A stretch of DNA of 20,270 nucleotides from a virus: positions 1 through 20,270 of the IMG/VR virus record IMGVR_UViG_3300003886_000053; one strand, 5' to 3'. This document shows, piece after piece, positions 1-13,969 of the stretch (position 1 is the stretch's first letter; every line of letters begins with the position of its first letter). The position numbers and the translations under genes were made by a program. Under the pieces are notes generated by a model that saw only the letters and a program-made list of their open reading frames with translations, was not told the origin of the DNA and made no database searches.

Positions 1-70
1 CCTCCTCAACCTCTACAAGATCGTCTAACTCATATAACGCCAATTGCCTTGTGCGATCGTCTACTGTCAT
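1..70 (-). CDS. Partial unknown protein, N-terminus only
   Basis: An ATG at 68-70 opens a leftward reading frame that stays open to the window edge. It gives 23 residues beginning MTVDDRTRQLALYELDDL, acidic and probably helical. An in-frame stop at 80-82 rules out an earlier start. AGAGG lies about 17 bases upstream, a poor ribosome site. It sits 12 bases after the stop of the preceding gene, so it probably belongs to the same transcript. Function cannot be judged from this fragment. Confidence 0.45.
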   Translation of the reverse strand, partial: MTVDDRTRQLALYELDDLVEVEE

Positions 71-82
71 AAACGCATACTA

Positions 83-301
83 TCAACCTCTTGTGGGTTT
101 AGCTACCTTCCCTAAATACTTTTCAGTCATACTACCCATGATTGAACTCGTCATGGTTTCGGATAATTTAATGGCTACGTCTTTTGGCAAACCTTCATCA
201 ATCATCTTCCTATAAAAACCAGCGATTAACGGAGCGATCGTGTCATTGATCGACGCAATAGCTTGGTCAATTTGAGCCTGAATAGAGGGTTCTAGCGCCA
301 T
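83..301 (-). CDS. Small unknown phage protein (72 aa)
   Basis: The start is placed at the ATG at 299-301 because GGAG at 312-315 lies 10 bases upstream. A TTG two codons earlier is possible but too close to that site. The protein begins MALEPSIQAQIDQAIASIND, is probably largely helical, and ends in a basic KVAKPTRG tail. There are no cysteines, no signal peptide and no membrane segment. It follows the 304-669 gene by two bases, so the two are probably translated from one message. I do not recognise the family. Confidence 0.65.
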   Translation of the reverse strand: MALEPSIQAQIDQAIASINDTIAPLIAGFYRKMIDEGLPKDVAIKLSETMTSSIMGSMTEKYLGKVAKPTRG

Positions 302-2874: not shown

Positions 2875-3495
2875 TTAGGAACGCCTTGGCTGGGCATTGG
2901 CATAGCGAAACGCCACGGCCCGAGCGAACGTAGGGGAATAGGGATTTTTACCTAGATTTTTAGGCGGTAAGTGAAGATCGATCCAGTCCGGGATTGAGCT
3001 AGAATGCCTGGATAGATACCACTGCCCAAGCGAGATTGCATCCCCCTCATCACCCCCAGCGTCCCCCTCGCCGGTGCGGCCGGTCAGCAGGGCCAGGGTT
3101 TGGAGCCGGGCCGACTTCTGCTCGCCTCTTCCACCGTTGATCCGGGTCCAATGATCGCTGTCCACGGTCACCACGGGCTTAGTATCGACGGTATTGGCCC
3201 AGCAGACCGCCAAGACGGCCCCAACCGCCGCGCCATACACGCCAGGCGTTGCGAACTTGGCACGCTTACGGCCAGCCTGAGCACGACCAGGAATCTCCAC
3301 GACCACGCGATCGATCAGGGAAGCATATTCATCAAACAGAGCATCGACCTCCTGCATCATGTGCCGGATCCGCATATAAGCCGGCCAGCCGGCAGGACGC
3401 TTGATCACACCCGACGCCAGGGGCATGTAATCCTCCGACGTCATATACGCCCAACCGATACCGCTGCTTGAAGGGTCGAACGATAGGATCTTCAT
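2875..3495 (-). CDS. RuvC-like Holliday junction resolvase
   Basis: The protein has the RNase H-fold layout of RuvC: MKILSFDPSSSGIGWA with Asp7 on strand 1, VVVEIPG with Glu67, and the C-terminal DEGDA motif (Asp149 and Asp152). These acidic residues would bind the two metal ions that cut four-way DNA junctions. At 206 residues it is slightly longer than cellular RuvC (about 170), with an additional tail from about residue 165. Its ATG overlaps the methyltransferase stop as ATGA and no good ribosome site precedes it, so translation is probably coupled. A phage resolvase of this kind would debranch replication or recombination intermediates before packaging. The nearby Sak4-like protein fits a recombination set. 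Confidence 0.82.
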   Translation of the reverse strand: MKILSFDPSSSGIGWAYMTSEDYMPLASGVIKRPAGWPAYMRIRHMMQEVDALFDEYASLIDRVVVEIPGRAQAGRKRAKFATPGVYGAAVGAVLAVCWANTVDTKPVVTVDSDHWTRINGGRGEQKSARLQTLALLTGRTGEGDAGGDEGDAISLGQWYLSRHSSSIPDWIDLHLPPKNLGKNPYSPTFARAVAFRYANAQPRRS

Positions 3496-4478
3496 GATTG
3501 GATCAATTCGTTTAGTGCGCGTTTAACCACTGCCGGAACTTGTCCGTTGCCAAGGGCTTTAAGCCGGTCCACCCGATAGGCCACCCCATTAGCCAATCGA
3601 CCCATTCCGGGTTCAACTGACCACCAAGGCGCGACCTCTTCGCCGCGGACTTCGCACCCCTGCCCTTTGCCATCCCCACATCCGGCGTCGGATACTTGCA
3701 CACAGTGTTTAGGCCCGGAGATTTTCGTTTGAACTGACTCGGTCCCCCGTCGTTCTTTGCATCCTGAACCGTTGGCGTCGGCAACATCTTTTTGGCTACC
3801 GCGGTCGCTAGATCGTCCCCGCCCGCACCCTCCCGATTCACCCTCGCATAATCCGGACCCGAGGGGCTGGACTTGGGAGTCGGCCACGGCTTTGATGGTG
3901 TCCAATCCGTTTGAGCTACCTCTAGCAGATTCTTCGGGCCGTTGGTGTTCGCATTTTTGTTTGGAGCTTCCGGCGCGGTGCAAGGTGTCGGATAAGAGTA
4001 TCCATAATCTTTTTCGCTGATGTGGCGCTCCGCAATCTTCCGCAGACGTAATACACCACTCCGCATCGAACCCCAACCTGGCCAGGTCTCCAATAACGGT
4101 TCCCCAGTAGGGTGTTGAAATGAGGCCTGGCACGTTCTCCAGCAAAGCGAATCGTGGTCGTACCTCGCTAAGTATTCGTGCGGTTTGTGGCCACATATTT
4201 CTATCGTCATCTTCCCCGAGCCGTTTACCTGCGGTACTAAATGGTTGGCACGGGAACCCAGCAGAGACGACATCCACTTTGCCACGCCAAGGCTTGCCGT
4301 CGAATGTTCGTACATCGTCCCATACCGGGAACGGGCCGAGCGATCCATCCTCTTGGCGTCGTAGCAAGACCTCTCGACAGTACGGGTCGATTTCAACTGC
4401 GCACACCGTTCGCCACCCAAGCAGTTTGCCGCCGAGAATTCCGCCACCAGCGCCAGCGAACAATGCCAACTCATGCAT
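3492..4478 (-). CDS. dcm: DNA cytosine-5 methyltransferase
   Basis: The 328-residue product carries the ordered C5-methyltransferase motifs. Motif I (ALFAGAGGG, residues 5-13) binds S-adenosylmethionine. Motif IV is GFPCQPFS with catalytic Cys77, motif VI is ENVPG with Glu114, motif VIII is QRKRLWILLSD (154-164), and motif X is LKALGNGQVPAVV (306-318). Residues about 165-290 take the place of the target-recognition domain and are unusually rich in Gly, Ser and charged residues, so the recognised site cannot be guessed. The gene overlaps its upstream neighbour as TAATG and the resolvase as ATGA. No restriction endonuclease is adjacent, so it is probably a protective orphan methylase. Another long frame runs through almost the whole gene. 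Confidence 0.9.
   Translation of the reverse strand: MHELALFAGAGGGILGGKLLGWRTVCAVEIDPYCREVLLRRQEDGSLGPFPVWDDVRTFDGKPWRGKVDVVSAGFPCQPFSTAGKRLGEDDDRNMWPQTARILSEVRPRFALLENVPGLISTPYWGTVIGDLARLGFDAEWCITSAEDCGAPHQRKRLWILLSDTLHRAGSSKQKCEHQRPEESARGSSNGLDTIKAVADSQVQPLGSGLCEGESGGCGRGRSSDRGSQKDVADANGSGCKERRGTESVQTKISGPKHCVQVSDAGCGDGKGQGCEVRGEEVAPWWSVEPGMGRLANGVAYRVDRLKALGNGQVPAVVKRALNELIQS
3512..4474 (-). CDS. Overprinted ORF inside the methyltransferase gene (MSWH...LMGWPIGWT family)
   Basis: This 320-codon ORF starts four bases after the methyltransferase ATG and lies wholly inside it in another frame of the same strand. It is not random in content. It begins MSWHCSLALVAEFSAANC, contains YPTP, WPTP, LPTP and YPTP repeats (for example MLPTPTVQDAKNDGGPSQF), and ends LNPEWVDWLMGWPIGWTGL followed by LATDKFRQWLNAH. 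I recall many phage and prophage proteins with exactly this start, these PTP repeats and this ending. The same bases encode methyltransferase motif X in the other frame (RVDRLKALGNGQVP). Either both products are made, or the second frame stays open because methyltransferase sequence constrains it. Function unknown. Confidence 0.45.
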   Translation of the reverse strand: MSWHCSLALVAEFSAANCLGGERCAQLKSTRTVERSCYDAKRMDRSARSRYGTMYEHSTASLGVAKWMSSLLGSRANHLVPQVNGSGKMTIEICGHKPHEYLARYDHDSLCWRTCQASFQHPTGEPLLETWPGWGSMRSGVLRLRKIAERHISEKDYGYSYPTPCTAPEAPNKNANTNGPKNLLEVAQTDWTPSKPWPTPKSSPSGPDYARVNREGAGGDDLATAVAKKMLPTPTVQDAKNDGGPSQFKRKSPGLNTVCKYPTPDVGMAKGRGAKSAAKRSRLGGQLNPEWVDWLMGWPIGWTGLKPLATDKFRQWLNAH

Positions 4479-11658: not shown

Positions 11659-13116
11659 TTAGAATGTCCTATGTTCAGCGAGCCGCGCACGGATCATATT
11701 GAACGTAGACTGATTGAAAATCGACCCATTATGGAACCGACACTGGAACGCGCAATTCTCGACCTCCTGCCACGACGAATCCTGCTTTAATTTCAAAACA
11801 CCGTTAGCACCACGGTGAACCGACAGCAAACCCTTTGCCGACTTCTTGGTGCCGTCGTCAGTCTTGGGATCCTTGAAGATGGGCATGGGCCGGCTTTTGA
11901 TCTCGCCGTAGGTCGACTTGACCGCAAAGCAAAACGTGTCACGGGTTATGTACTGATACGTATAAGAGCCGATACCAAACACCACCCTGGGCACGAACTT
12001 AGATGCGACTAAATTGGCACATATCTGCGTGCAACGATCGAGCGTAATTGAATCGCCATAGATCAACCCGACATGGCTATCCAGGCTCTTGAATCCCTTC
12101 TCGTTGGTCTTGCCGCCGAACGTATCGTATAGCAGCCGCATCGAACCCTTGCCCGCAGGCAACTCGGGGTCCACCGTAGGATCCCCGCAGATGATCTTGA
12201 CCGGATCGCCAGAGTCGGGGCGAATAACCAACGTGCCGTCACGATTCATAATCTCATTGCGTAACGCCGGCAGGATGTCGGTCAGCACACGCCAGTAATC
12301 CCAGCTATCGGCTACCACAGATACCGGGCCTGACGGGTAGACCTCAGTGATCAGCCGCCTGAAGGTATCTAGCTCGGTCGTATCGCCGCCCATGCACATC
12401 ACCGAGTGTTCGGTGGCCGGTATGGAACCACCCACAGCACGGTCCCCAGGATTGGGGTAGAAGCGATCTACGAAGTCCAGGGCATGAACGGTGTCCGTAC
12501 CCGTGAAGCTCAGCAGGTGAGCCGCACCTGACATTGCCGCCGCCTCGGGGCCGTACATGCCACGGGACGAAAAGTCATGGCCCTGGAACGGGCAGAAATC
12601 CTGGTCGCCACCCGAAGCCCTGGTCAGGCCACTGATAATACTGCGATATTTATCGGCGATCGTAGCAGCGGTACACGGCCCCCAGAGCACGCTGGATAGT
12701 GACGTCTCAAGGTAATTGGTCAGCCAAAAGAAGTCTGGGTGGGTATTCCACATCACCATTGCCGGCACACCTATCGGCACCTTGGTGCCCTCGGGAACGG
12801 CATAGATCGCAACGGGCAGACGGCCGAAGTCATGCAACGCCTCGATATGCGCGAAGTCCATAAACTTATTCGACCCACCAACACGCCGCTTGTACTCCTC
12901 GACTACAACGTTTTTGGGGTAGCCAAAGAAATTAGTGTCCCAAAGATCGAGCAGATACTTCTGAATGTAATACTGAAGGCCGAAAAACACGACCTCATTG
13001 ATCCCGTCGATTCGGGATCCACGCGGTGTGAAGTTTGAAAAGATGAGTCCCGTACCCTCCGGGTACTGGCGGCGGTGGTCGACCTTGTAGAAATCAATCA
13101 GGTGTAATGGGTTCAT
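11659..13116 (-). CDS. nadV: NAMPT-like nicotinamide transferase (NadV/Namat family)
   Basis: The 485-residue protein aligns by eye along the whole of NAMPT (about 490). It has DFYKVDHRRQYP at the N-terminus, GHDFSSRG, GTDTV, EHSV with the active-site His, VVADSWDY, IRPDSGDP, GLIYGDSI and FKDPKTDDGTKKSAKG. These residues bind nicotinamide and the phosphoribosyl group. The glycine loop that reads GSGGG in human NAMPT is GIGSY here. NAMPT makes NMN from nicotinamide and PRPP. In NARP1 systems the homologue (Namat) instead joins nicotinamide to ADP-ribose pyrophosphate, giving NAD+ directly. Its ATG overlaps the PRPP-synthetase-like gene by 23 bases, with GGA-type ribosome signals. I cannot separate the two activities by sequence alone. 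Confidence 0.9.
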   Translation of the reverse strand: MNPLHLIDFYKVDHRRQYPEGTGLIFSNFTPRGSRIDGINEVVFFGLQYYIQKYLLDLWDTNFFGYPKNVVVEEYKRRVGGSNKFMDFAHIEALHDFGRLPVAIYAVPEGTKVPIGVPAMVMWNTHPDFFWLTNYLETSLSSVLWGPCTAATIADKYRSIISGLTRASGGDQDFCPFQGHDFSSRGMYGPEAAAMSGAAHLLSFTGTDTVHALDFVDRFYPNPGDRAVGGSIPATEHSVMCMGGDTTELDTFRRLITEVYPSGPVSVVADSWDYWRVLTDILPALRNEIMNRDGTLVIRPDSGDPVKIICGDPTVDPELPAGKGSMRLLYDTFGGKTNEKGFKSLDSHVGLIYGDSITLDRCTQICANLVASKFVPRVVFGIGSYTYQYITRDTFCFAVKSTYGEIKSRPMPIFKDPKTDDGTKKSAKGLLSVHRGANGVLKLKQDSSWQEVENCAFQCRFHNGSIFNQSTFNMIRARLAEHRTF

Positions 13117-13969
13117 TGATCCATCCGTTGTAAAGGGTTTCTAATTTGATAAAACCGAACCGAAGATGCCGGGCCGGGTCAATACGTGGCGCATAGTTTT
13201 CAAGCGTATAAATGCGGTGGAACGTTTCCAATAGCTCGTCGACACCCTTTGTGAATAGCCCGTGTGTGACTACAAGATCGATCGACTCAGCACCCATCTC
13301 AACGAGCTTGGCAGCTAAGCCGATGAACGTGCCTCCACCGTCGCAAATGTCATCGACCAGGATGATCCGCTTGCCCTTGACCTGATCCTGATCGGCAATC
13401 ACATCGAACCCAGACAACGCGCCGGTTTCGCCATCACGAACCTTTAGGCACTGAACAGACACATCGTCATCGGTAAGCCAGGTCAACGCCTTGGGCACGG
13501 CACCCTTATCGGGAATCGCAAACGCATAGCCGTCCAAAACGTACTTACCGCCACAATGGTCATGGATCATATGCAACGCCGCATTAGCCACATTCGACTG
13601 AGGGATATGACGAAACGGCTCCGACTCGGTGCTATGGGGATCGATCACCACAATGTTGTGAGTCGTAAGGCCCAAGTAAATTTGACGAAGAACCGTTAGC
13701 GGCTCGCCATCACCGCGAACAAACGCACGGTCATGACGAGCAAACGGAAGATACGGCATAAGGATGTCGTTATTCAGGTTTAGCTTACGTAAGACCTCGG
13801 CAGCAACCATCACGTCCATCATCTCAGACCAGTTGAAAGCCTCAGCCAGAATGAACTCGTCGGGCTTTGGATCCCGCTTGAGCCGTACCTGGCTCTCGCC
13901 AGTGGGGTAATTAAACCGCTCGAAAATATCGAGAAACATCGCTAGCGGAGTTGGTGAGGGATCAGACAT
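13094..13969 (-). CDS. prs: PRPP-synthetase-like kinase (Prs/Adps family)
   Basis: GGAG at good spacing precedes ATG 13967-13969. The 291-residue product follows the Prs plan: YLPFARHDR (ATP-binding region), VVIDPHS with the metal-binding Asp-His, FAIPDKGAVPK, CLKVRDGETG with the catalytic Lys-Arg, and RIILVDDICDGGGTF as the PRPP loop. Cellular Prs is about 315 residues and reads DDxIDTxGT in that loop. Prs transfers pyrophosphate from ATP to ribose 5-phosphate. The NARP1 homologue Adps instead uses ADP-ribose. Overlap with the NAMPT-like gene and a dedicated promoter show the two act together in NAD+ synthesis. Which substrate is used is not shown by the sequence. Confidence 0.9.
   Translation of the reverse strand: MSDPSPTPLAMFLDIFERFNYPTGESQVRLKRDPKPDEFILAEAFNWSEMMDVMVAAEVLRKLNLNNDILMPYLPFARHDRAFVRGDGEPLTVLRQIYLGLTTHNIVVIDPHSTESEPFRHIPQSNVANAALHMIHDHCGGKYVLDGYAFAIPDKGAVPKALTWLTDDDVSVQCLKVRDGETGALSGFDVIADQDQVKGKRIILVDDICDGGGTFIGLAAKLVEMGAESIDLVVTHGLFTKGVDELLETFHRIYTLENYAPRIDPARHLRFGFIKLETLYNGWINEPITPD

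Follow-up and report, generated by a model that had tools for sequence, protein, structure and literature searches.

The large-subunit gene of M.EcoHK31I also encodes the small subunit, in a different reading frame, and M.EaeI, an isoschizomer of M.EcoHK31I, is likewise a two-polypeptide enzyme. Single-chain C5-cytosine methyltransferases (C5-MTases) are built from a large domain, holding motifs I-VIII and X, and a small domain, holding the recognition region and motif IX (PMC3404938). M.EcoHK31I carries motifs I-VIII and X in the larger subunit and motif IX in the smaller, with the predicted recognition domain placed in the larger subunit; in M.AquI, one chain contains motifs I-VIII and the other contains the distal half of the recognition region plus motif IX (PMC3404938). 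The multispecific C5-MTases of temperate Bacillus phages (SPbeta type), as far as they are covered where cited in PMC4081073 and PMC12707154, carry several target-recognising domains in series.

The DNA analysed here (the window) is a virus record of 20,270 bases, on the minus strand of which two long ORFs overlap. We propose, with a probability of about 0.88, that they encode one C5-cytosine DNA methyltransferase made as two polypeptides, alpha and beta, from the same DNA in two frames. By its layout the system belongs with M.EcoHK31I, as a variant in which the specificity chain is modular, and it is widespread; its biochemical function is predicted from sequence. Compared by described layout rather than by sequence, the window resembles M.EcoHK31I in having motifs I-VIII and X in one chain and IX in the other. 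A further likeness is that the second ORF (3512-4474) lies inside the first (3492-4478) in the +1 frame and is under selection in relatives. The two differ in that the recognition modules of the window family lie in beta, with the alpha frame neutral there, and in that M.EcoHK31I is part of a restriction-modification system whereas the window family has, in phages, one to six swappable PTP modules. Among those window proteins that were scanned, none fell in a restriction-endonuclease family. M.AquI, like the window, separates catalytic motifs I-VIII and motif IX onto two chains; however, its beta also contains motif X, as do those of type A relatives (ArV1, phiBT1, Twister and L016), whereas the window encodes no small subunit with both IX and X, its motif X being in frame 1 (alpha). 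The SPbeta-type enzymes are also phage C5-MTases with serial modules, as the modules of the window family are serial and exchangeable, but they are single chains read in one frame, whereas here the array has a chain of its own, read from an overlapping frame, and target recognition by each module is putative. The families phrog_363 and phrog_1008, both labelled 'DNA methyltransferase', take in the window alpha and beta, respectively, and these labels are silent on the two being halves of one enzyme from the same DNA. A literature search of mostly openly available papers found no description of this overlap in phages.

Anatomy of the two chains

Alpha, the C5-cytosine methyltransferase catalytic subunit (3492..4478, minus strand), has 328 aa and contains motifs I-VIII and X. 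It matches phrog_363 (E 2e-66) and PF00145 (Pfam; E 4e-34, confined to residues 5-167), and it includes both GFPCQ and LLENV, the catalytic PCQ and ENV of C5-MTases. Alpha thus has the hallmarks of this family: motifs I-VIII, the two catalytic motifs and an M.HhaI-like fold (Pfam, Foldseek). Motif IX, in contrast, is absent from frame 1, and alpha lacks what a single-chain enzyme has between VIII and X, namely a recognition domain with IX. The first-pass annotation, which credited the methyltransferase frame with all main motifs, was inaccurate here, as motif IX sits in the second frame. An AlphaFold model of alpha (50 sequences) is confident over residues 1-169 (mostly above 90 pLDDT), and Foldseek matched the model to M.HhaI (E 9e-13), with M.HhaI and M.HaeIII matched over about 170 residues. 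Residues 170-301 are predicted to be disordered (pLDDT mostly 33-54), and residues 302-328 form a confident helix holding motif X. The poorly ordered part corresponds to the alpha linker (residues 165-302; 3573..3986, minus strand), which is frame 1 read through recognition-module DNA; motif X with the C-terminal helix (302-327; VDRLKALGNGQVPAVVKRALNELIQS) occupies 3495..3572 on the minus strand. This division into order and disorder matches the large and small domains of single-chain enzymes (PMC3404938). The 3′ end of the alpha gene is overlapped by 4 bases by a RuvC-like resolvase gene (phrog_159; 2875-3495, minus strand).

The second ORF, of 320 codons (3512-4474, minus strand), is nested in the +1 frame of the 328-codon methyltransferase gene and starts 4 nt past the first ATG. 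Both ORFs had been placed correctly in the first-pass annotation, as had their peptides, including four PTP-type repeats and LNPEWVDWLMGWPIGWTGL, and its remark that the same bases encode motif X (RVDRLKALGNGQVP) and the LMGWPIGWTGL segment was confirmed in the window. Beta, the predicted specificity subunit (3512..4315, minus strand; 267 aa if it starts at ATG 4315), comprises a core, four PTP modules and motif IX. The beta core (DHDSLCWRTCQASF..LLETWPGWGSMRSG; 4055..4168, minus strand) is overprinted on methyltransferase motifs VI-VIII and is conserved in frame 2 across loci, with the family consensus SSWKTxQCSL..SxTWPxWGxMRxG. It is followed on the minus strand by PTP module 1 (YPTPCTAPEAPNKN...; 3887..3994), module 2 (WPTPKSSPSGPDYARVNREGAGGDDLATAV; 3785..3886), which resembles a module of Gordonia phage JKSyngboy, module 3 (LPTPTVQDAKNDGGPSQFKRKSPGLNT; 3695..3784), which resembles a module of Arthrobacter phage ArV1, and module 4 (YPTPDVGMAKGRGAKSAAKRSRLGGQ; 3617..3694). 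Motif IX (LNPEWVDWLMGWPIGWTGL; 3560..3616, minus strand) then occupies a position homologous to IX of single-frame C5-MTases and of type A betas.

The family signature in frame 2 to which the first-pass annotation had pointed was recovered as a match of residues 71-303 to phrog_1008 'DNA methyltransferase' (E 7e-27); further phrogs match the frame 2 C-terminus. The window beta matches ORF067b of Arthrobacter phage ArV1 (the ArV1 beta; E 1e-16), which in turn aligns (E 1e-16) with a single-chain Streptomyces C5-MTase at residues 180-309, over a PTP module, IX and X. In the mycobacteriophage Estave1 enzyme, two PTP modules, IX and X share one frame with motifs I-VIII, and these single-frame modules resemble the second-frame modules of Gordonia phage Upyo. 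Through this chain of homology, the stretch from the PTP modules to IX is the C5-MTase recognition region and motif IX, moved to the other frame. The pairwise chain from the window beta to ArV1 and from ArV1 to Streptomyces was used in place of an HHalign comparison of the beta alignment with the single-chain Streptomyces enzyme, which was moderate (prob. 75) and aligned an implausible region. Separately, the Estave1 gene (L235:641-1216) encodes a single-chain enzyme, yet its +1 frame is still open across the beta core; it is perhaps a re-fused form.

These matches bear on a rival reading in which the two frames are both translated, with beta as a separate protein of regulatory or anti-defence function rather than the specificity half of the enzyme. 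The N-terminal core of beta (SSWKTxQCSL..WGxMRxG) is without counterpart in single-chain C5-MTases, and beta has no solved homologue: a frame 2 sequence search against solved structures gave no match, nor did Pfam and NCBIfam scans of beta proteins. However, beta shares homology with the C-terminal half of single-chain C5-MTases in its PTP modules, in IX and, for type A, in X as well, and alpha is left without an ordered small domain in the AlphaFold model, so that we regard a separate protein as very improbable. Modelled alone, beta reached a low pLDDT of 57; this poor model is compatible with a partner-dependent small domain and, because of its low confidence, was left out of fold searching. 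Judged by its homologies, beta supplies the target-recognition region (four PTP modules) and motif IX to the enzyme of which alpha is the catalytic part. The second protein would then be the other half of this enzyme, its signature being IX plus the recognition region, and not an unrelated overprinted family, a point not foreseen in the first-pass annotation.

Selection on each frame

In the +1 overlap, frame 1 position 3 is frame 2 position 2, and frame 1 position 1 is frame 2 position 3. Differences per site were counted between related loci, in 31 independent pairs; the alignment followed frame 1, which biases against a finding of frame 2 constraint. The window has no near relative, and selection was therefore measured among more distant ones. 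At frame 1 positions 1 and 3, differences were about 0.11 and 0.37-0.39 upstream (PCQ-63..-40), 0.31-0.43 and 0.03-0.10 over most of the recognition region, and 0.10 and 0.42 at motif X. An OLGenie-like count of dNN/dNS (frame 2) and dNN/dSN (frame 1), bootstrapped over pairs, followed the same course. Frame 2 dNN/dNS was 0.85 [0.67-1.09] at the N-terminus, 0.57 [0.48-0.66] at PCQ+45..84, where the beta core lies, 0.18 [0.13-0.23] from the recognition region to IX+15 and 0.66 [0.48-0.98] at motif X; the corresponding frame 1 dNN/dSN values were 0.19, 0.34, 0.89 [0.63-1.22] and 0.17. Purifying selection is strong on frame 2 from the recognition region to IX, where the methyltransferase frame evolves neutrally; at the N-terminus and motif X the roles of the two frames are exchanged. 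A replicate of 25 independent pairs from cellular genomes showed the same flip between frames, with differences at frame 1 positions 1 and 3 of 0.337 and 0.092 from recognition region to IX, 0.145 and 0.307 at the N-terminus and 0.125 and 0.370 at motif X. Codon usage, trained on the other genes of the window, favoured frame 2 (+0.235 bits per codon) over frame 1 (-0.259) across the 125 recognition-region codons, placing frame 2 ahead by about 0.49 bits per codon.

The overlap-aware check that the first-pass annotation had called for, run on homologues with DNA in common and replicated in the 25 pairs, supported its suggestion of dual coding for about codons 130-305. It did not do so for the first ~50 codons, where the alternative that it had allowed, of a passively inherited second frame, fits; in about codons 130-305 that alternative failed. 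What it had not foreseen is that in the recognition region the methyltransferase frame is the passive one.

The possibility that frame 2 is open and conserved merely because methyltransferase motifs and codon bias leave few +1 stops has some basis, since the +1 frame of strongly conserved methyltransferase segments can appear conserved without function, and the dNN/dNS of 0.85 over the first ~50 ORF codons suits it. From the recognition region to IX, however, frame 1 is neutral where frame 2 is constrained, and frame 1 therefore cannot cause the conservation of frame 2. Synonymous codon shuffling with the methyltransferase protein fixed (232 codons of the window) predicted 4.7 stops in frame 2, and none was seen (P about 0.0025); in 90 related loci an open frame 2 was expected in 3.8 and seen in all 90, these loci having been preselected for an open frame 2, although without that condition 92/93 were open. 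The +1 frame of E. coli dcm, moreover, contains 14 stops. For the stretch that runs from the recognition modules to IX, a passively open frame 2 is thus refuted by the dNN/dNS pattern, its replicate and the shuffling, and for the locus as a whole we give this explanation hardly any chance. Dual coding by one split enzyme would make this a clean natural case, in which, within 1 kb, selection passes from frame 1 to both frames, then to frame 2 and finally back to frame 1, the two flanks serving as internal controls.

Initiation of beta and the proposed enzyme

The 5′ stretch of the 320-codon ORF that overlaps the methyltransferase N-terminus (4316..4474, minus strand) is probably open through chance or passively, the near-neutral frame 2 ratio given above applying upstream of PCQ-40 in relatives. 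Because frame 2 looks neutral family-wide over these first ~50 codons, the length of 320 codons most likely exaggerates the beta gene, the real product starting within the ORF. Candidate starts in the window are ATG 4315, 4273 and 4210, with weak Shine-Dalgarno sequences; translation of beta is probably initiated inside the ORF, around 4315 or 4273. Where frame 2 of a relative opens late, only a short way ahead of GFPCQ, a start codon preceded by a Shine-Dalgarno-like sequence is found just upstream of that motif (e.g. GATGTAAGGAACTTAG|ATG). This signal was clear only in such late-opening loci, and no general Shine-Dalgarno enrichment was found at frame 2 start codons. The ATG at PCQ-5 was conserved no more than the methyltransferase frame accounts for, and the Shine-Dalgarno-forming arginine codons before it showed no excess.

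A programmed +1 frameshift, in place of internal initiation, would fuse the N-terminal part of alpha with the recognition region and IX of frame 2, so that a long hybrid is made in addition to alpha. Frames 1 and 2 overlap fully, and in type A loci (ArV1, phiBT1, L016) a single +1 shift would yield a canonical single-chain enzyme. Type B loci such as the window, by contrast, would require a second shift back to reach motif X, and the late-opening loci have Shine-Dalgarno and start codons of their own for beta. Frame 2 is, furthermore, constrained well before any useful shift point (0.57 at PCQ+45..84), where the conserved beta core is overprinted on VI-VIII. As this constraint over VI-VIII implies that frame 2 is translated upstream of any useful frameshift point, internal initiation is favoured and frameshifting appears improbable.

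According to the model of one enzyme made as two chains, both products would be translated, frame 1 giving the catalytic large domain (alpha), with motifs I-VIII in a single folded block. Read in frame 1, the recognition region would yield a disordered linker of about 130 residues, beyond which motif X and the C-terminal helix would complete the SAM-binding domain. Frame 2, most likely through its own ribosome binding inside the alpha gene, would give the small domain (beta), consisting of the N-terminal core followed by four PTP modules of recognition type and by motif IX. The two chains would then assemble as a heterodimer into one active enzyme, and phage DNA would be methylated at sites picked by the beta modules and so shielded from host restriction.

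Spread of the arrangement and exchange of modules

A scan of IMG/VR by codon pattern for the motif found at least 120 loci. Among the 93 listed with motifs IV and X in one frame, the +1 frame was open from just past motif VI to motif IX in 92, and the third frame usually stopped within a few codons. A search of bacterial and archaeal genomes gave 285 relatives; of the 80 that were retained, 71 were nested as in the window, three had IX and X together in frame 2 and six were unclassifiable; a single-frame enzyme with this motif occurred in 0/80 of these kept loci. Their titles span Pseudomonadota, Verrucomicrobia, Planctomycetes, Nitrospira, Bacillota, Actinomycetota, Patescibacteria and Euryarchaeota. 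Three layouts were distinguished: type A, with IX and X both in beta (ArV1, phiBT1, Heather, Twister, L016); type B, with IX in beta and X in alpha (this window); and type C, with the PTP region alone in frame 2 (Gordonia phage JKSyngboy). Two annotated plasmid methyltransferases initially taken as controls (L227 and L230) turned out to be type B with beta unannotated. Many phage and prophage entries named 'DNA cytosine methyltransferase' would on this reading represent half an enzyme, the annotated protein being largely neutral linker and the specificity subunit lying unannotated in the other frame, and specificity prediction, cloning or activity tests using the annotated frame alone would fail or mislead.

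Several further loci were observed alongside these. In L107 and L116, frame 2 holds PCQ and frame 1 holds motif X, as if through a one-base indel, which may be a sequencing error or mark a pseudogene. A gene of a different C5-MTase family on a Picosynechococcus PCC 7003 plasmid (L233:1505-2749) has a +1 frame open for all 262 codons with a motif IX-like FSPEAMAMYMGFP in it, possibly the same arrangement arisen independently. An Enterococcus faecium plasmid dcm (L228:1126-2565) encodes a full-length single-chain C5-MTase with a 142-codon ORF in the +1 frame; this ORF is conserved in 209 phage records, mostly Streptococcus, and may be another overprinted partner or reflect passive conservation.

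Target-recognising domains of the SPbeta type are near 40 aa in length. Between the beta core and motif IX, nearly all loci of the window family contain one to six PTP modules, with a median of 39 residues, the window having four, and each module would read a DNA target. Among 73 locus pairs with N-terminal DNA at least 85% identical, all modules were common in two and none in 58; conversely, 73 pairs without a detectable N-terminal DNA match had a module in common at ≥60% identity. Two loci with 95% identical N-termini (L035 and L055) differ by one extra module, and one 29-residue module is identical between L101 and Acinetobacter phage ABMM1. These patterns support cassette exchange between loci with nearly identical catalytic halves, which makes it directly testable whether phages recombine recognition cassettes to change methylation specificity. 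We tentatively suggest, at somewhat less than even odds, that a large class of phage C5-MTases stores its specificity as one to six interchangeable recognition cassettes, read in the +1 frame of the gene for the catalytic chain, so that exchange alters the functional beta while alpha merely receives another disordered linker. The overlap would then act as an evolvable specificity cartridge for multi-target methylation against host restriction, with a beta core newly made by overprinting VI-VIII.

Elsewhere in the window, a NAMPT-like gene (phrog_448; 11659-13116, minus strand) overlaps a ribose-phosphate pyrophosphokinase-like gene (phrog_619; 13094-13969, minus strand), a pair that we take to resemble phage NAD+ reconstitution (NARP-type) anti-defence operons.
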